A DNA stretch of 25,176 nucleotides from a virus, in the IMG/VR virus record IMGVR_UViG_3300044911_001462, positions 1 to 25,176 of that record; one strand, given 5' to 3'. The translations under genes were made by a program, and so were the position numbers. Every line of letters starts with the position of its first letter. The first letter of the stretch is position 1. Shown piece by piece: positions 15,790-25,176 of the stretch. Under the pieces are notes generated by a model, which made no database searches, was not told the DNA's origin, and saw only the letters and a program-made list of their open reading frames with translations.

Positions 15790-16625
15790 CAGTACATCTC
15801 GATCTCGGTGGTCTGTTGCTGCGCGCCACTGGCGCCCGTCATCCAGCCCGGCAGGCTGATGGTTTCGATCTGATCGCTGTAGCTCGGCCAGTTGTCAGCA
15901 GCACGGCAAACGGCCAGCTTGCCTAGATCCTTCATGGCCTGTTCGTAGCCGCGATCAGTCATCACCTCATCAGCGGCATAAACCGCCACGGCGTATGGCG
16001 CGGTCGATTCCACGCAGATGAAGATGAACTGATCCGGGCGCTTGCCCGTGGCCTGCTCAACCCCGTTCAGATACCAAGCTGCCTGCACGTGGTAGCGGTA
16101 ATCAGCGATGCTGCGCATAAACCCGCGTGGACTGGCGTCTCTGGTGGTTTTGAGATCCACCATGATGCTGCCGTCATCGGTCAACCAATCCGGCCGGCAC
16201 TTGCACTCCACCCCATAGGTGGCATCCGTCCACATATGGGTGGTCTCTGCCTTGCCCGGCAGGCCCAGCAGCATTGCTGCACCGGGATGGCGCATGATGC
16301 TGCGGCCCATGGCCATCACCACCTCGGCATCGTCGGCGGTGATCACGGTCTTGCCAGCAGCAGCAGCCTCGAACGCTGCATAAGACTCCTTGCCGGCTTT
16401 GGTGCGGCGATCCATGGCAGGTGCCACGGCGATTTCTTCATCCCACCTGCTCAGCTCGAGCACGTGCGTGTGAAGCGCAGTGCCAAGGCGCATGGCAGCA
16501 GATGGTTCCGGCGTGATGCGGTTCGGATCCAGGTAGCGCGACCAGTAGTGCAGCGGTGATCGCGCGATGAGATCCAGATGAGACTTTGAGACGGCCGGAT
16601 GCGCGTGATACGCGGTGTTGTCCAT
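15789..16625 (-). CDS. RecE-like PD-(D/E)XK exonuclease
   Basis: 278 aa. The nuclease core is visible: 'LGTALHTHVLE' (H52/H54), 'YGVE140CKCRPD146WL', 'IMVD157LK159TT', and 'YHVQ181AAWYLNG'. This matches the exodeoxyribonuclease VIII/DUF3799-type PD-(D/E)XK nucleases that degrade one strand of double-stranded ends and feed a RecT protein. It is first in the minus-strand operon, reading away from the divergent control region at 16626-16715, and couples to recT by TGATG. Shorter than E. coli RecE, it is close to the C-terminal catalytic domain only. Confidence 0.85.
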   Translation of the reverse strand: MDNTAYHAHPAVSKSHLDLIARSPLHYWSRYLDPNRITPEPSAAMRLGTALHTHVLELSRWDEEIAVAPAMDRRTKAGKESYAAFEAAAAGKTVITADDAEVVMAMGRSIMRHPGAAMLLGLPGKAETTHMWTDATYGVECKCRPDWLTDDGSIMVDLKTTRDASPRGFMRSIADYRYHVQAAWYLNGVEQATGKRPDQFIFICVESTAPYAVAVYAADEVMTDRGYEQAMKDLGKLAVCRAADNWPSYSDQIETISLPGWMTGASGAQQQTTEIEMY

Positions 16626-16633
16626 ACTTGCGG

Positions 16634-16664
16634 GCAGTTGCGGCCAAATACTAGCAGTTGCGGC
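16634..16664. promoter_or_regulatory. Divergent control region with two 11-bp direct repeats (operator candidate)
   Basis: GCAGTTGCGGC occurs at 16634-16644 and 16654-16664, exactly 20 bp apart (about two helix turns). It lies between the divergent starts at 16625 (minus) and 16716 (plus). A TAGTAT on the minus strand (16653-16648) lies between the repeats and could be a -10 box. A dimeric regulator bound to both repeats would cover the whole control region. No regulator is identified. Confidence 0.5.
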
Positions 16665-16715
16665 AGGCTGCGCTACTGTGCCGAGCGCTGGGACACCCAG
16701 CTCGATCCTCCGCCT

Positions 16716-18983
16716 ATGACCTACTCCGACTTCCTGGCTTCAAAGTCCACAGCCTGCCCACCAGCAGGATTTGATCCGGCATCCTTCACCGCGCCGCTGT
16801 TCCCCTTTCAGCGGGACATCGTGACCATGGCCTGCCGTGTTGGCAGGTTCTGCATCTGGGCCGACTGCGGCATGGGCAAAACCGCCATGCAGCTCGAATG
16901 GGCATCACAGGTCTGCCGGCACACCAAAGGCAACGTGCTGGTGTTGGCACCCCTTGCCGTTGCACATCAAACCGTGCGCGAGGGCAGCAAGTTCGGCATC
17001 CCATGCGCGTTCGCTGCAACGCAAGCCGACGTGCGCCGCGGCATCACGATCACCAACTACGAGAAGCTGACCCACTTCGATCCATCCGCCTTCGATGGCG
17101 TGGTGCTTGATGAGAGCAGCATCCTCAAGGCATATACGGGCAAGATCCGCAATCAGATCATCGAGTCGTTCGCGCAGACCCCATTCCGTCTGGCCTGCTC
17201 AGCCACACCAGCACCGAACGACCACATGGAGCTGGGCAACCATGCCGAGTTCATCGGCGTGATGACCCGCACCGAGATGCTGGCCATGTTCTTCGTGCAT
17301 GACGGCGGCGACACCGCTAAGTGGCGGCTCAAGGGTCACGCGCGGAGCAAGTTCTGGGAGTGGGTCTGCAGCTGGGCGGTCACGATCCGCAAGCCATCAG
17401 ACCTTGGCTACGACGATGGCAGCTTCATCCTGCCGGCGCTGCAGATCAATGACTGCACAGTTGAGACGCCACGTGATGCCGCAACTGATGACGCTGGCCA
17501 GATGGCACTATTCGCCATGGAGGCTCGCACGCTGAGCGATCAGCGGCAGGTGCGCAAGGCATCGCTCGATCTGCGCGTTGCAGCAGCAGCCACCCTGGCC
17601 AACAACAGCACCGAGCAGTGGTTGATCTGGTGTGATCTCAACGATGAGAGCAAAGCGCTCACTGCCGCCATCCATGGTGCGGTTGAGGTGTCGGGCTCAG
17701 ACTCCGACGATCACAAGCAACAGGCCGCCATCGACTTTCAAGATGGCAACATCCGCGTGCTGGTCAGCAAGCCAAGCATCTTTGGATTTGGTCTGAACTT
17801 CCAGGGCTGCCACAACGTCGCATTCGTTGGTCTGTCACACAGCTACGAGGCGTTCTATCAGGCGATCCGCCGCTGCTGGCGATTCGGCCAACAGCAGCCC
17901 GTCAACGCTCACATCATCTACGACGTGGCAGAAGGCCGCGTAATCGACAACATCCGCCGCAAAGAGGCGGACAGCATCGCCATGGCTGAATCAATGGTCG
18001 CCATCATGAAGCAATCCACCATGGAGCAACTCAAGAAGATCCAGCGCCAAGTAGCGCCGCACATCACTAAGCACAAGTCCGGTGATGGATGGGACATGTA
18101 TATGGGCGACTGCGTGGAGAGCATCAAGCAGCTCGACAGCAACTCAATCCACTACAGCATCTTCAGCCCACCGTTCGCGTCGCTTTACACCTACAGCAAC
18201 AGCGACCGCGATATGGGCAACAGCCGCACTGAGCAGGAGTTCTTTGATCACTTCGGATTCCTTGCCAGTGAGCTGCATCGCGTGATGATGCCCGGCAGGC
18301 TGATCAGCTTTCACTGCATGAACCTGCCCAGCAGCAAAGAACGTGATGGCTTCATCGGTGTGAAGGATTTCCGCGGTGACATGCTGCGCATCTTCCAGGC
18401 TGCTGGTTTCGTGTTCCATAGCGAGGTGTGCATCTGGAAGGATCCCGTCACCGCCATGCAGCGCACCAAGGCAATCGGCCTGCTGCACAAGCAAGTGCGT
18501 AAGGATTCAGCACTGAGTCGCCAAGGTATTCCTGACTACCTCGTGACCGTGCGCAAGCTGGGCGACAATCCAGAGCCATGCGCCGGCCCGTTCACTGAGT
18601 TTGCTGGTGAGAACCCACCAGCCAAGAGCGGCGACCCGATCAAGGACTCGATCAATATCTGGCAGCGCTACGCCAGCCCCGTATGGATGGACATCAACCC
18701 ATCGGACACGCTGCAATACCGCAGCGCACGCGCCAATGAGGATGAACGCCACATCTGCCCGCTGCAGCTAGAGGTGATCCGCCGCGGCCTGCAACTGTGG
18801 AGCAACCCAGGCGATCTCGTGCTCAGTCCATTCGCTGGTATCGGCAGCGAGGGTTACGTCAGCCTTCAGATGGATCGCCGCTTCGTTGGCTTTGAACTGA
18901 AGCCCAGCTACTTCAACTGCGCTATCAAGAACCTGACCAATGCACAAGCGGCAAAGCAGGCGGAGCTGCTGCCATGCAACTGA
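16716..18983 (+). CDS. SNF2-type helicase fused to a DNA methyltransferase
   Basis: 755 aa from ATG 16716; an in-frame upstream start (16599) would overlap the divergent exonuclease gene. Residues 25-430 are an SF2/SNF2-like motor: Walker A 'CGMGKT' (51-56), DES box (132-134, 'VVLDESS'), 'SAT' (162-164), and motif V/VI 'GFGLNFQG...YQAIRRCWRFGQ' (357-391). Residues about 455-740 are a methyltransferase with 'SPPF' (484-487) ahead of 'LSPFAGIGSEGY' (703-714), the beta-class order; SPPY/F is typical of N4-cytosine or N6-adenine enzymes. The single chain would translocate on DNA and methylate it. No partner restriction nuclease is fused, so the likely use is protecting phage DNA from host restriction or marking replicated DNA. 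It overlaps the next helicase gene by ten bases. Confidence 0.88.
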   Translation: MTYSDFLASKSTACPPAGFDPASFTAPLFPFQRDIVTMACRVGRFCIWADCGMGKTAMQLEWASQVCRHTKGNVLVLAPLAVAHQTVREGSKFGIPCAFAATQADVRRGITITNYEKLTHFDPSAFDGVVLDESSILKAYTGKIRNQIIESFAQTPFRLACSATPAPNDHMELGNHAEFIGVMTRTEMLAMFFVHDGGDTAKWRLKGHARSKFWEWVCSWAVTIRKPSDLGYDDGSFILPALQINDCTVETPRDAATDDAGQMALFAMEARTLSDQRQVRKASLDLRVAAAATLANNSTEQWLIWCDLNDESKALTAAIHGAVEVSGSDSDDHKQQAAIDFQDGNIRVLVSKPSIFGFGLNFQGCHNVAFVGLSHSYEAFYQAIRRCWRFGQQQPVNAHIIYDVAEGRVIDNIRRKEADSIAMAESMVAIMKQSTMEQLKKIQRQVAPHITKHKSGDGWDMYMGDCVESIKQLDSNSIHYSIFSPPFASLYTYSNSDRDMGNSRTEQEFFDHFGFLASELHRVMMPGRLISFHCMNLPSSKERDGFIGVKDFRGDMLRIFQAAGFVFHSEVCIWKDPVTAMQRTKAIGLLHKQVRKDSALSRQGIPDYLVTVRKLGDNPEPCAGPFTEFAGENPPAKSGDPIKDSINIWQRYASPVWMDINPSDTLQYRSARANEDERHICPLQLEVIRRGLQLWSNPGDLVLSPFAGIGSEGYVSLQMDRRFVGFELKPSYFNCAIKNLTNAQAAKQAELLPCN

Positions 18984-20357: not shown

Positions 20358-20948
20358 GTGCCAAATCCCATACCTGTTGAGCTGCTCGGCCAGCGCTTCG
20401 GGCTTCTAACTGTTTTGGCCGACGCTTCGGCTGGCCACCGCTATCAAATGGTTCGCTGCCAGTGCGACTGCGGCAACGTGACCGTGATCAGGAAAAACCG
20501 TCTCTACGAACGCACCGGTAAGCAGCTGGCATGTGGATGCCTTCGTGGCCGACACGCCAAGCATTCGGACTGCCACAGCAAGCTTTATCGCGTCTGGGAT
20601 TCGATGGTTCGACGGTGCCACAACCCAAATCATCGAGCGTTTGCAAACTATGGCGGCAGAGGTATTCAGGTATGCGCCGAGTGGCGCGACTACCGCAACT
20701 TCAAGGCATGGGCAGATACCAGCGGCTACTCAGAAGGCCTGACGATCGACCGCATCGATAACGACAAGGGCTACGCACCAAGCAACTGCCGTTGGGCGAC
20801 CAGGAAGGAACAGCAAAACAATCGCCGCTGCTGCGTCTACATCCAGCACGACGGCAAGCGCCTGACCGTCACAGAGTGGAGCGAGCTGCTCGGCGTGCCG
20901 CGCCACACTGTGCGCAAGCACCTCGAGGCAATGAATGGCGGCCAGTGA
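20358..20948 (+). CDS. HNH/AP2-like phage homing-type protein
   Basis: 196 aa with a GTG start. N-terminal part 'GQRFGLLTVL...CQCDCGN...ACGCL' with Cys 34, 36, 38, 59 and 61 is a zinc-binding module seen in many phage proteins. The centre, 'LYRVWDSMVRRCHNPNHRAFANYGGRGIQVCAEWRDYRNFKAWAD' (in parts), then 'LTIDRIDNDKGYAPSNCRWATRKEQQNN', is the 'YGGRGI...DRIDN..Y.P.NCRW' signature of free-standing HNH-like homing nucleases. A C-terminal helix-turn-helix (VTEWSELLGVPRHTVRKHLE) would read the target. It sits between the helicase and VRR-NUC genes and may be a mobile insertion. It overlaps the next gene by 14 bases. Confidence 0.75.
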   Translation: MPNPIPVELLGQRFGLLTVLADASAGHRYQMVRCQCDCGNVTVIRKNRLYERTGKQLACGCLRGRHAKHSDCHSKLYRVWDSMVRRCHNPNHRAFANYGGRGIQVCAEWRDYRNFKAWADTSGYSEGLTIDRIDNDKGYAPSNCRWATRKEQQNNRRCCVYIQHDGKRLTVTEWSELLGVPRHTVRKHLEAMNGGQ

Positions 20949-21285
20949 GACGCATCTCCAACAGGAAATCCGACTGGCTCTGGGAACTAGGCCGGACCTA
21001 AGGCTCTACAGAAACAACTGCGGCTCCTTGCCCGATCCACGCACCGGCCGGCTCGTCACATTCGGCCTTGCTCGTGGCTCTGCTGATCTGATCGGCTGGC
21101 GCACCGTCACGGTCACCCCGGAGATGGTGGGCCAGCGCATTGCTGTGTTCACCAGCATCGAGGTGAAGACGGAGCGGGGCCATGTGCGGCCCGAGCAACA
21201 CGCATGGCAGCGCACCGTATCGGCCGCAGGTGGCATCGCAGGCATCGCACGCTCAGTACAAGACGCAAACGAATTGCTGAGATAA
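20935..21285 (+). CDS. VRR-NUC nuclease
   Basis: 116 aa from ATG 20935. A complete VRR-NUC core: 'ETHLQQEIRLAL', 'YRNNCG', 'GSAD51LIGW', 'SIE76VK78TERG', 'EQ88HAW', and 'AGGIAGIARS' at the end. VRR-NUC is a PD-(D/E)XK fold; phage members are small single-domain nucleases thought to resolve branched DNA or remove flaps. It starts 14 bases inside the HNH-like gene and lies before the primase, so it belongs to the replication operon and may trim branched DNA made by the helicases. Confidence 0.85.
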   Translation: MAASETHLQQEIRLALGTRPDLRLYRNNCGSLPDPRTGRLVTFGLARGSADLIGWRTVTVTPEMVGQRIAVFTSIEVKTERGHVRPEQHAWQRTVSAAGGIAGIARSVQDANELLR

Positions 21286-21320
21286 CTGCCAACCTGCCAA
21301 CCTTTCTGCCAAACTCTGCC
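21286..21320 (+). repeat. CTGCCAA repeats upstream of the primase gene
   Basis: CTGCCAA occurs at 21286-21292, 21294-21300 and 21306-21312, with a partial CTGCC at 21316-21320. The first two are spaced 8 bases apart, so CTGCCAACCTGCCAACCT reads as one 18-base run. Related units, mostly inverted, occur after the gene (23376-23522). Confidence 0.6.
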
Positions 21321-21337
21321 GGCCTCTCCGTAGCCAT

Positions 21338-23377
21338 GTGGCAGCCGATCTCCTTCAACAGCTCGCCAATATCCCCGACCACTGGGCGCTGGTAGCCGTC
21401 GGCAACGACAAGCGCCCCTATCAGCCCGAATGGCAAAAGCACCCCATCTCCCGCCAGCAGCTCACCGCTGAGATCACCGCCGGCCGTGCTGTAGCCATTG
21501 GCGTGATCGCAGGTCCACAGTCCGGTGGCCTCCTCTTCGTTGATCACGATGGTCTTGGCGCCTCAGAGGTGCTTGAGCAGATCGGCGCACCACTTCGTGA
21601 CCTACCCAAGTCATGGGCCGTTACCTCCGGCCGTGATGGCCGCGTACAGATCATCTATCAAGTCCCAGAACCCTTCTGGGCCACCATCAAGACCACCAAG
21701 CTGCGCAGCTCCATCAAGGGTGAGCAGCTTGAGCTTCGATGGTCTGGCTGTCAGTCCGTCGTCGCAGGTGCTCACCCCATCACCGGTGCCTACCGCTGGC
21801 TCAAAGGTCGCGCACCTGGTGATCTGCCCCTCGCTGAAGCGCCTTCACTCCTGCTGCAGCAGATGCAGCGCCACAAGCCTGACCCAGCGCCACTGCTGCG
21901 CCTACCAGACACCGACGCACAACGCGCACGCGATTACCTCGCATCCATCCCAGCAGCCGATGCCGACGACTACGACGCATGGCTGCGCGTTGGCATGGCG
22001 CTTCACAGCGTTGGCGACGACTCGCTCCTATCCGATTGGATCAGCTGGTCCACCGCATCCGGCAAGTTCGAGCCCGGTGTCTGCGAAGCGAAATGGCGCA
22101 CCTTCCATGCAGCATCTGGTGGCGTCAGCATCGGCACCCTCGCGCACCTAGCAGGTCATGAGAAAAGCCGCCCGTCTCCAGCCGGGCAGCCGCCATCTCC
22201 GCCGCAACAACGCAGCGCGCCAAACCCTACCGCAGCTCACGGCAAGCTCCTCAAGCTCGAATCCAATGAGCTCCTCGAACTCCTTCGTCAGCAGCTAGGC
22301 GACCGCCTTCGCTGGAACCTGTTCACCAAGGTGATCGAGCTCGACGAAAAACCCCTTGAGCACATCGAGCATTTCTACCTACAGCTCTCACAGCAGGGCG
22401 TCAAGGTCACCAAAGACCTAGCCGCTGATGCCGTCCACGTCGTCGCACTCGAGAACCCATACGACCCCGTCCGCAACTACCTCGAGCACGTCGCTGATCA
22501 CGTGCAGCCCGTTCCGATCGATCACATCGCAACCGCCTACCTCCGCCCAGCAGATCAGCCCGGCACCCTCTACGACGCCATGCTCAAGGCCACCCTCGTG
22601 GCCGCCGTACGCCGCATCTTCGAGCCCGGCTGCAAGCACGACTCCGCCTGCGTCCTGATGGGCCCGCAAGGCTGCGGTAAGTCCACCTTCTGGCGCAACC
22701 TTGGTGGCCTCTGGTTCAGTGATGCCCTACGCGACATCGGCTCCAAAGACGATCTCATGGTGCTCCACCGCTCATGGCTCATGGAATGGGCCGAGCTCGA
22801 TCACATCACCAACCGCAAGCACGCAGGCCAGGTCAAAGCCTTCCTCACCCAACAGACGGACATGTTTCGCGCGCCATACCAGCGCACCACTGAGGCATAC
22901 CCACGCCGCTCGATCATCGTCGGCTCCACCAACCGCGACACCGGGTTCCTCGTCGATGACACCGGCAACCGCCGCTTCTGGGTCATACCCATCACAGCAG
23001 CGCCACACATCCCCGTAGATGGCCTACTGCTCGAACGCGATGCCATCTGGTCTGCAGCTGTCGCCGCCTACCGCACCGGCGAACCCAACCACCTCACACG
23101 CGAACACAGCGCACAGGTCGACGCTGAAAACGAGTCCTACCTCGTCGACTCGCCATGGAAGGCCGCCATCCAGGAGTGGATCAACTCACCCCGCAATGAA
23201 GGCCGACCTATCACCAGCGAGCTGCTGCTCACCGAAGCGATCAGCAAACCAGTCGAGCGCCAGGGCCGCGCAGACCAGATGCAGGTCGCATCGATCATGC
23301 GCGAGCTCGGCTTCGTCAAACAGCGCCAGTGGATCGATGGCCGCAACAAGTGGGTTTTTGTCCAACCTCGCGGATGA
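21338..23377 (+). CDS. Prim-pol/VapE replicative primase-helicase
   Basis: 679 aa with a GTG start (an overlapping ATG at 21336 is in another frame). Residues about 10-180 are a primase-polymerase domain with the metal site 'LLFVDHDG' (D69, D71). Residues about 195-270 are a PriCT-like helical domain ('DYDAWLRVGMALHSVGD...CEAKWRTF'). Residues about 370-640 are the VapE/SF3-like ATPase: Walker A 'GPQGCGKST' (442-450), Walker B-like 'LMEWAEL' (481-487), 'FRAPYQR', 'STNRDTGFLVDDTGNRRFW' with the Arg finger (545-547). Such fused proteins make primers and unwind the phage origin. It is the last gene of the replication operon and is bracketed by the CCTNCCAA repeats. A perfect hairpin spans its stop codon. 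Confidence 0.9.
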   Translation: MAADLLQQLANIPDHWALVAVGNDKRPYQPEWQKHPISRQQLTAEITAGRAVAIGVIAGPQSGGLLFVDHDGLGASEVLEQIGAPLRDLPKSWAVTSGRDGRVQIIYQVPEPFWATIKTTKLRSSIKGEQLELRWSGCQSVVAGAHPITGAYRWLKGRAPGDLPLAEAPSLLLQQMQRHKPDPAPLLRLPDTDAQRARDYLASIPAADADDYDAWLRVGMALHSVGDDSLLSDWISWSTASGKFEPGVCEAKWRTFHAASGGVSIGTLAHLAGHEKSRPSPAGQPPSPPQQRSAPNPTAAHGKLLKLESNELLELLRQQLGDRLRWNLFTKVIELDEKPLEHIEHFYLQLSQQGVKVTKDLAADAVHVVALENPYDPVRNYLEHVADHVQPVPIDHIATAYLRPADQPGTLYDAMLKATLVAAVRRIFEPGCKHDSACVLMGPQGCGKSTFWRNLGGLWFSDALRDIGSKDDLMVLHRSWLMEWAELDHITNRKHAGQVKAFLTQQTDMFRAPYQRTTEAYPRRSIIVGSTNRDTGFLVDDTGNRRFWVIPITAAPHIPVDGLLLERDAIWSAAVAAYRTGEPNHLTREHSAQVDAENESYLVDSPWKAAIQEWINSPRNEGRPITSELLLTEAISKPVERQGRADQMQVASIMRELGFVKQRQWIDGRNKWVFVQPRG

Positions 23378-23383
23378 GGTTGG
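23362..23383 (+). other. Perfect inverted repeat across the primase stop codon
   Basis: CCAACCTC (23362-23369) and GAGGTTGG (23376-23383) pair exactly around a 6-base loop that contains the first T of TGA. No T-run follows. The arms are the same CCAACCT unit as the flanking repeats, so this is more likely part of the repeat system than a terminator. Confidence 0.55.
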
Positions 23384-23420
23384 CAGGCCGAGATCCCTTG
23401 CGCTGCAAGCCTTCTCCTAT

Positions 23421-23522
23421 CCTTACTAACCTTCTAACCTTAGTAATAAACTATATAAAAGGGAGGAGTAGGGGAAAAAGAGCCTATAGGGGCAACGTTG
23501 GTGAGGTTGGGAGGTTGGTAGG
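23421..23522. repeat. Repeat cluster with AT-rich stretch: candidate origin or operator array
   Basis: Plus-oriented units CCTTACTAA, CCTTCTAA and CCTTAGTAA lie end to end at 23421-23446. An AT-rich stretch (AGTAATAAACTATATAAAA, 23442-23460) overlaps their end. Minus-oriented units TTGGTGAGG (23498-23506), TTGGGAGG (23507-23514) and TTGGTAGG (23515-23522) also lie end to end. All share the CCTNNNAA or CCTNCCAA form and an 8-9 base step. Iteron-like repeats beside an AT-rich stretch next to the primase gene fit a replication origin; operators for a repressor are the main alternative. Confidence 0.55.
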
Positions 23523-23554
23523 TGCCTGGCCGGCTCGCGCCCTACCCTTGGCGT

Positions 23555-24235
23555 ATGGCCATCAACATCACCATCGATCAACAGGGCATTGGCCTCCTGC
23601 AACGTCGATCGGCCGTGGTCGCCAAGCAACTACCCTTCGCCACCAGTCAGGCGCTCAACAGCGCAGCGTTCAGTGCCCGTGATGCTCTTAAAGGCGCTTC
23701 ACGCGAGGTCTTTGATCGACCAACCACCTTCATCCAAAATGCGTGGCTGGTTCAAAAGTCCACCAAAACCACGCTCATCGCAGTGGTTTACCCAGAAGCT
23801 CGCCGTCGCCCCTATCTCAAAGCCAACATCCTTGGTGGCCTACGAGGGACCAAGCCATTCGAGGCCAAATATTTCGGACAGGCTTCTGGAAGCGTCGGCA
23901 ATGCCTCTCGACTCATCCCAGCCGCGATCAACCGCAACGCACAAGGCAACGTGTCTCTGTCCGTTCTGACGCGCCTTTCAGCGAAGATCAGCACCAAAGG
24001 CAAAGGGTCGGTCTTTATCGGCACACCAGCCGGTGGGGCACGGCCTCCAGGCGTCTACGAACGAACAGGCACCAAACGCACCGGACTGCGCCTTAGGCCC
24101 CTGTTTGTCGGCAAGCCATCAGCCACCTATCAACGCATCTTCAAGATTGATGAGATTGGCAGCAAGGTCGTGCAACGCCGATTCAACGAATACCTGCGTA
24201 CAAGCCTTGAACGCGCCGTTGCCTCTGCGCGTTAA
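23555..24235 (+). CDS. Minor tail protein, lambda Z-like
   Basis: 226 aa from ATG 23555 (MAINITIDQQGIGLLQRRSAVVAK); an earlier GTG at 23522 lies in the repeat cluster. The opening 'LLQRRSAVVAKQLPFATSQALNSAAFSARDAL' matches the start of minor tail protein Z-like proteins, which cap or complete the tail tube. Later parts are basic, with Gly-rich loops (GTPAGGARPPGVYERTG) and a C-terminal helix (IGSKVVQRRFNEYLRTSLERAVA). It is the only structural gene in this arm, so the head and tail-tube genes probably begin beyond the right edge. Assigned by pattern, not by a signature motif. Confidence 0.55.
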   Translation: MAINITIDQQGIGLLQRRSAVVAKQLPFATSQALNSAAFSARDALKGASREVFDRPTTFIQNAWLVQKSTKTTLIAVVYPEARRRPYLKANILGGLRGTKPFEAKYFGQASGSVGNASRLIPAAINRNAQGNVSLSVLTRLSAKISTKGKGSVFIGTPAGGARPPGVYERTGTKRTGLRLRPLFVGKPSATYQRIFKIDEIGSKVVQRRFNEYLRTSLERAVASAR

Positions 24236-24292: not shown

Positions 24293-25132
24293 ATGCCCAA
24301 AGCCTATCAACTGCCAGCACCCGGCGAGCCGTTTGATCCTGAGCTATTCAAACTCGGCGCACCGTGCAAACGCAATCACATCCATGCCGATGGCATGACC
24401 CTTCGTTGGGTACGCAGAGGGCAATGCTGCATCTGCGATCGCATTGACGCGTTAGAACGGCAGCAGCGTCTAAGGCAAGATCCTGAGTACTTACGCAAAC
24501 GAGCTGCTTACGTTGCTGAGAAACGAAAACGGCAAGGCAGAGAGTCCAGATCTAAACATGGACTTCCGTACCAACCCAGACCAGACGCGGAAACTCTGTC
24601 GATGCGTAAGGCGATCCAATCAGCAGGGCGCCTGCCATCTGTCGCTGAACTTGTAATACGACAGCAGTATAAATACTGGCGAGAGCATCGGAGCGAATAC
24701 GAGCAACACAAGCGTGACCGCAAACGTGAGTACGTACGTTGGCGACAGATGACTGATACCGGCTACCGCCTCTACCACCGCGCCAAGTCCAAAGCGCGCA
24801 AGGTGGCGCAACGTGGTAGCACCCCCCATCACTTGACCCCCTCCCACCTCTTGAGACGGTGGGGGGAGTTCAATCACGTTTGCGCCTACTGCGGGGCGAC
24901 TGGAGATCTGCAGATTGAACACGTTGTGCCGATCAGCAAAGGCGGCGAGCATCACCTCGGCAACATCGTGCCTGCTTGCCATCGATGCAACAGCAACAAG
25001 CGTGATCACGATGCCCACAACTGGTTTGCATCTCAATCGTTTTACAGCGCAGAGCGATGGCAGCTCATCCAAGCTCTCCTGCTCAAATCCAAACCACAGG
25101 CCACCCAGCTGCCGCTTTTGCTGCCAGCTTAA
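24293..25132 (+). CDS. HNH endonuclease with a long basic N-terminal part
   Basis: 279 aa from ATG 24293. The C-terminal HNH site is complete: C197-x2-C200 (CAYCGATGD), 'LQIE209H210VVPISKGGEHHLGN224', C229-x2-C232, N235-K236. The N-terminal 180 residues hold a Cys set (C25, C45, C46, C48) and very basic helices rich in Arg, Lys and Gln, probably to bind the target site. This is the layout of a free-standing homing endonuclease. It stands after the Z-like tail gene and a strong hairpin, consistent with insertion between structural genes. Inside the gene, before the HNH part, C-rich and G-rich tracts (24836-24869) can pair. Confidence 0.85.
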   Translation: MPKAYQLPAPGEPFDPELFKLGAPCKRNHIHADGMTLRWVRRGQCCICDRIDALERQQRLRQDPEYLRKRAAYVAEKRKRQGRESRSKHGLPYQPRPDAETLSMRKAIQSAGRLPSVAELVIRQQYKYWREHRSEYEQHKRDRKREYVRWRQMTDTGYRLYHRAKSKARKVAQRGSTPHHLTPSHLLRRWGEFNHVCAYCGATGDLQIEHVVPISKGGEHHLGNIVPACHRCNSNKRDHDAHNWFASQSFYSAERWQLIQALLLKSKPQATQLPLLLPA

Positions 25133-25176
25133 AAATTGGGTCCTTTTCCTCCCATAGGTCGAGGGTGATCGCTTGC

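Follow-up and report, generated by a model that had tools for sequence, protein, structure and literature searches.

A probable phage replication origin of the SaPI/PICI rep-ori kind behind the Prim-Pol/VapE gene in a cyanosiphophage family

In PICI origins an AT-rich region lies between two iteron sets; a plasmid is maintained when it carries a cloned rep-ori segment (PMC6092414). SaPI Rep uses its C-terminal domain to recognize iterons directly downstream of its own gene (PMC7581432). In systems of this kind (SaPI Rep, PriRep1, EcCICFT073 Pri-Rep) a VapE/D5-like helicase is fused to a primase or encoded next to it, the origin lies directly 3' of the initiator gene, two opposed iteron sets surround an AT-rich region, and the C-terminal domain reads the iterons (PMC6092414, PMC7581432). 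Cch2 of SCCmec, another D5-type helicase, likewise has a C-terminal domain that binds direct repeats immediately after the cch2 gene (PMC7581432). The alpha protein of satellite phage P4 is a primase-helicase whose winged helix binds origin repeats, followed by unwinding and priming (PMC4234260). ORF904 of pRN1 and the replication protein of Bordetella phage BIP-1/BPP-1 combine an AEP Prim-Pol with an SF3 helicase and a winged helix, and an origin 3' of the gene has been proposed for them (PMC4234260). Finally, the Sfi21-type ori of S. thermophilus phages, a phage-encoded resistance element, is noncoding, is located in the DNA replication module and has origin properties (PMC6356513).

Here we describe a locus in a viral record of 25,176 bases (the window), the right part of which carries, in this order, an HNH gene, a VRR-NUC gene, a gene for a Prim-Pol/PriCT_2/VapE protein (the primase), a minor tail protein gene and a second HNH gene. 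The HNH endonuclease genes, at 20358-20948 and 24293-25132, lie on either side of the replication block, and a single ORF of 794 aa at 16599-18983 joins a superfamily II helicase to an N6/N4 DNA methylase, which are separate genes in Synechococcus phage S-LBS1. S-LBS1, a freshwater cyanosiphovirus (PMC6157547), is the named phage nearest to the window. This isolated relative has terminase, portal, capsid and tail genes and is thus a full phage. Since the window has a minor tail protein gene behind the putative origin, and S-LBS1 is a full phage, the window does not fall among PICI satellites, which lack a virion gene set of their own. The features of the locus are as follows.

21289..21303, + strand: direct pair CCAACCTGCCAACCT upstream of the primase gene, a possible autoregulatory site; 59 of the 60 cluster loci have one unit or more.
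21338..23377, + strand: gene for Prim-Pol + PriCT_2 + VapE, 679 aa, the proposed initiator, helicase and primase (Pfam; match to SaPI PriRep1).
23141..23374, + strand: part coding for the C-terminal winged helix (about residues 602-679), the proposed iteron reader (AF2 models, covariation with the iterons).
23362..23383, no strand: palindrome CCAACCTC-GCGGAT-GAGGTTGG, two opposed iterons spanning the stop codon; 57 of 60 loci.
23421..23446, + strand: left iteron set with CTAACCT at 23426 and 23434, abutting the AT-rich stretch; mean conservation 0.86.
23440..23461, no strand: AT-rich stretch, the proposed melting site; GC 25-30%, compared with about 60% in its surroundings; all main lineages are AT-rich here.
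23458..23483, + strand: G-rich purine tract adjoining the AT-rich stretch, which makes the core directional.
23484..23500, + strand: conserved block, GAGCCTATAGGGGCAAC in the window, between the purine tract and the right iteron set; conserved in relatives.
23497..23522, - strand: right iteron set with AGGTTGG at 23504 and 23512, partial units flanking both; mean conservation 0.79.
25138..25176, + strand: right genome end with a cos-like motif, a neighbor of the putative origin and outside it.

The repeats are real and non-random. The motif C[CT]AACCT occurs ten times in the window, and eight of the copies are at the locus (21289+, 21297+, 23362+, 23377-, 23426+, 23434+, 23504-, 23512-); six fall within 170 bp behind the primase gene, where 1,000 Markov simulations of the window gave three at most. 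CCTNCCAA alone is only weakly enriched: 8 copies stand against 3.0 expected, a count that 3 of 100 shuffles also attain. The array behind the gene, 23362-23522, begins at the stop codon (23375-23377) and continues beyond it, a place common to nearly all lineages. An earlier note, made from the window's sequence, had taken CTGCCAA as the unit ahead of the primase gene. CTGCCAA is indeed present there, at 21286, 21294 and 21306; however, it is unspecific, with 14 occurrences throughout the window, and the working unit is CCAACCT/CTAACCT rather than CTGCCAA. The perfect inverted repeat that the note had placed at 23362-23383 was found, as were the inverted units further downstream, and the agreement of 16 of 18 positions between the upstream run and the reverse complement of the right units plus their flank is correct. 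The AT-rich middle of the downstream cluster is likewise real (GC 25-30% at 23420-23479, about 60% in the surroundings). The three units said to lie end to end at 23421-23446 are there as sequence, CCTTACTAA/CCTTCTAA/CCTTAGTAA being contiguous, but for the middle 'CCTNNNAA' units a reading as two CTAACCT is preferable, at positions that are among the best conserved in relatives.

Relatives came from five scans, four over viral contigs and one over genome contigs. Together these yielded 192 distinct loci, which fall into 40 clusters when grouped at 80% primase identity; the most distant relatives sampled have 39% primase identity to the window. Among the 60 loci of the window's own cluster, the upstream unit was found in 59, the palindrome in 57, at least two left units in 57 and at least two right units in 45. 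In 34 thinned members of this cluster, mean conservation was 0.86 for the left set, 0.83 for the palindrome and 0.79 for the right set, whereas the AT-rich stretch (0.57), the following spacer (0.56) and the start of the next gene (0.47) were less well kept. What is retained in relatives is the layout: an AT-rich stretch lies between two iteron sets of opposite orientation, and a palindrome spans the stop codon. The core lies 3' of the primase gene in all array-bearing lineages; the upstream units, present in the window's clade, are missing in many. The unit itself varies by lineage: CCAACCT, CCCAACCT, CCTACCT, TTCCTACC, TGCCCTACC, GTCCCAACC, CCCCACCT, GATCCGACC, CGTCCAAC and others were seen, and S-LBS1 has CCTAACCT units plus four copies of AGGTTGGGC in tandem. 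Opposed repeats in the 3' region exceeded all 40 shuffles in 30 of 39 lineages (nine fell short), while coding controls did so in none of the 39. No 3' array was found in the Nostoc cluster L087 (39% identity). The anatomy and its conservation are direct observations. Because arrays are present in close and distant relatives, and because the units are not scattered evenly through the window, neither of the two checks that the earlier note had proposed on these points speaks against an origin.

Several side observations concern these relatives. The block at 23484-23500 reads GGAGCTATAGGGGCAACG in relatives and could be a promoter, a priming site or a part of the origin. Locus L083 (CAIMHL010000448.1) has an 83% identical primase, the same putative origin and the cos-like end; its contig was binned as an uncultured beta-proteobacterium and is a phage contig inside a bacterial genome bin. 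In the published record of S-LBS1 (L092), the end, 34518-34641, repeats 34261-34383 inside the iteron region, which is probably an assembly break at the repeats.

If all sites are read by one protein, the sites within one genome must change together. For 27 representatives under 75% identity we counted the 7-mers that one half of the 3' region has in common with the other. The mean was 12.4 within a genome and 5.0 between genomes, and the highest value in 20,000 permutations was 8.7, below the observed one; coding controls gave 5.7-6.1 within and 4.5 between genomes. The upstream pair was tested in nine lineages, where it too goes with the downstream unit, at modest support (p 0.014-0.04). This concerted change is accompanied by covariation with the protein. 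Between lineages, iteron distance correlated with divergence of primase residues 601-665 (Mantel, r 0.30; partial r 0.28 with the helicase controlled, 0 of 2,000 permutations), and was uncorrelated with that of PrimPol (-0.01) or PriCT (-0.06), with the reservations that shared ancestry partly remains in pairwise statistics such as the Mantel and pair comparisons and that the automatic choice of the iteron was noisy for some lineages (L163, L286, L128). In a sliding window the signal extended from residue 586 to the end of the protein with a peak at 601-630; in the window this peak is not encoded by the palindrome, which starts at residue 675. Judged by this covariation, the primase C-terminal domain appears to set iteron specificity.

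The primase contains Pfam domains PF05272 (E 1e-65), PF09250 and PF08707, and AlphaFold2 gives a confident winged-helix fold for residues about 605-675. Residues 291-679 match SaPI PriRep1 with dsDNA (Z 20.2; next family 12.9), which is also matched by the sequence profile (E 3e-38) and Foldseek (E 3e-13) and is the nearest solved structure; residues 2-180 match the pRN1 Prim-Pol (Z 12.9). A PDB search with the C-terminal model alone returned generic winged-helix proteins (Fur/PerR, PadR) and plant O-methyltransferases, the best E being 0.019, and the named relative of this domain therefore rests on the full-length match. Together, the concerted change of the units, their covariation with the C-terminus and the PriRep1 match strongly favor an origin bound by the primase itself, in support of the candidate origin named in the earlier note.

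The AT-rich core, the abutting iterons and the G-rich tract form a directional unit, which by inspection is inverted in 16 of 39 lineages. A first automatic classifier of orientation was unreliable because the iterons and the tract have the same purine/pyrimidine bias; it was replaced by gap measurement and inspection, which are still noisy. On a tree of the primase body, nine changes of orientation were counted, at least six of them forced by well-supported branches. Nearest neighbors shared an orientation in 32 of 39 cases when chosen by the C-terminus and in 25 of 39 when chosen by the body. For lineage pairs of equal body identity (0.77), which are not independent of each other, the C-termini were 0.69 identical if the orientation was the same and 0.53 if it differed. 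As an example, L104 and S-LBS1 have a body identity of 0.84 and a C-terminal identity of 0.54, and L104 has the C-terminus type and the unit of L142 (TGCCCTAC); L153 against L115, L120 and L128 is another example of exchange. That unit and core orientation are linked to the C-terminal domain is directly observed, and the sequence comparisons indicate that the AT core flips repeatedly, together with the C-terminal domain, like a cassette.

These data bear on the possibility that the repeats are operators of a transcription regulator, either the primase itself or a phage repressor, which control the primase operon together with the genes that follow, in which case the origin would lie elsewhere. 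A unit pair immediately ahead of the primase gene in the window's clade and a right iteron set 33-58 bp from the start of the next gene would suit operators. On the other hand, the core is 3' of the gene wherever arrays exist and the upstream pair is often missing, the AT-rich stretch and the tract invert as one, which a promoter could hardly survive, and changes in the units go with changes in the primase C-terminus; a search of 20900-23700 gave no sigma-70-like promoter, although cyanophage promoters may differ. We therefore regard operators as an unlikely explanation.

The opposed sets are able to pair, so that the repeats could also act in RNA as a hairpin or terminator ending the primase transcript. 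The region 3' of the gene folds with z -1.25 as DNA and z -2.87 as RNA (2 of 200 shuffles as good), values to be read with the fact that opposed repeats pair by construction, and the palindrome of S-LBS1 is followed by a T run. The window's palindrome has no T run after it, however, no terminator-like site was found there and the locus matches no Rfam family; moreover, pairing alone leaves the direct units and the inverting directional core unexplained, and the units covary with a DNA-binding domain of a protein. A role in RNA is accordingly very improbable. For pRN1 and BPP-1 a stem-loop was proposed as the origin and iterons were considered and then set aside; the repeated units of the window covary with the protein.

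The right end of the window carries the motif GGGTCCYTCC-N(about 15)-GGGTNNTTCGCGCG or ...GGGTGATCGCAGAC at 25138-25176, and more than 40 related loci end there, including L005, L008, L011, L013, L032, L048 and L069, the last continuing straight into apparent sequencing-adapter sequence; contig G007 has GGTGTTTGTCGAC at both its start and its end. A search for the whole pattern with up to three mismatches gave no match in 12 records, probably because the spacing varies, and a flexible regular expression succeeded. In form the motif resembles a cos site that leaves 5' overhangs of about 13 nt, and the right end of the window is therefore probably the true end of the genome. The HNH gene between the putative origin and cos seems to be missing in many relatives, where cos lies 0.9-1.1 kb after the primase.

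In the window's clade this cos-like end is 0.9-1.8 kb downstream of the array, and such proximity would be expected if the repeats were packaging or recombination sites, bound by the terminase (cosB/pac-like) or used in other end-processing. But the cos motif has a conserved sequence of its own without iteron units, one unit pair is 2 kb off on the other side of the primase gene, S-LBS1, for which headful packaging was reported (PMC6157547), carries the same arrays, the units covary with the primase C-terminus, and such arrays are also found at VapE genes of unrelated phages. We give packaging or recombination sites very little credence. The same neighborhood limits what can be learned from GC skew, a check proposed in the earlier note. 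In eight of 12 near-complete genomes the detrended skew minimum is at most 1.4 kb from the primase stop codon; the minimum is, however, mostly at +0.8 to +1.4 kb from the stop, at the adjacent cos/module boundary and closer to cos than to the array, and in two genomes it is more than 11 kb away. Skew points to this locus only to within about 1 kb and does not separate the array from the neighboring cos site; it is compatible with an origin here, neither refuting nor proving it.

No DnaA boxes (TTWTNCACA) were found in the window, and the locus does not class as a DnaA-dependent origin. The array is, in our opinion, very probably a phage replication origin of the SaPI/PICI rep-ori kind that would be bound, melted and primed by the Prim-Pol/VapE protein. 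By analogy to SaPI Rep we infer binding, melting, priming, the arrangement of rings and autoregulation as follows. The C-terminal winged helix would bind the CCAACCT-type iterons on either side of the AT-rich stretch, the protein would assemble across this stretch as two opposed helicase rings, the rings would melt it, and the Prim-Pol domain would make the first primers; binding of the protein to the upstream pair, near its own promoter, would most likely serve autoregulation or provide a secondary site. The locus shares with the SaPI/PICI systems the initiator domains, the 3' location, the opposed sets around an AT-rich region and, by covariation only, the specificity of the C-terminal domain. 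It differs in belonging to a complete phage rather than a satellite, in the additional unit pair ahead of the gene, in the palindrome that spans the stop codon and in the rapid turnover of unit and core orientation. Cch2 differs in its separate polymerase-MP primase partner, in having only three 5-nt iterons and in not belonging to a phage. P4 has a Toprim-type primase and the window an AEP Prim-Pol; a crr-like element is a feature of P4, and the locus is not of the P4 type. S. thermophilus phage SW6 resembles the locus in its opposed repeats 3' of a VapE-type helicase gene, but its primase and helicase genes are separate, Sfi21-type origins belong to Gram-positive phages, and the unit is unrelated.

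We also sampled, without enumerating all such phages, 18 named phages with VapE-type helicases by an 8-mer test for opposed repeats with 40 shuffles. In ten of them (S-LBS1, Marinobacter PS3, Corynebacterium StAB, Streptococcus Javan405 and SW6, Paenibacillus Bob, Evtepia and Blautia phages, Bacteroides F4 and Fusobacterium phiPaco) no shuffle reached the opposed repeats that surround and follow the stop codon, and the unit differs from phage to phage; Rhodobacter RcWhiteOak, reached by one of 40, brings phages with similar arrays to 11 of 18. The remaining seven (Pseudomonas U5 and Haddon, Xanthomonas Murka, Parabacteroides PM116P7, IMGVR 15682261, archaeal vir335 and S-EIVl) had no clear array in this test. 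The window itself was reached by one shuffle in 40, since some of its units read CCAACCT and others CTAACCT.

The earlier note knew of no described origin of this form. The form is that of SaPI/PICI origins (PMC6092414, PMC7581432), and the mechanism is already known from satellites; for the cyanosiphophage family an origin of this form is apparently undescribed in the literature searched, in which we found no paper on iteron origins of VapE/prim-pol phages. What is new is that the mechanism occurs in a phage family, where it is diverse, and that the origin and the DNA-binding domain are swapped together. With somewhat better than even confidence we propose that the origin and the initiator's C-terminal domain form one exchangeable cassette in this large family and that PICI-type origins are general for VapE-helicase phages. 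If so, dozens of distinct iteron/winged-helix pairs would exist, with the AT core flipping along, related phages could replicate alongside one another with no cross-recognition, and origins of the PICI type would be no peculiarity of PICIs. The locus offers a directly testable putative origin for phages of little-studied replication and a natural library of initiator/iteron pairs from which to learn how a winged helix changes its specificity, and it may be a basis for replication compatibility among co-infecting cyanophages.
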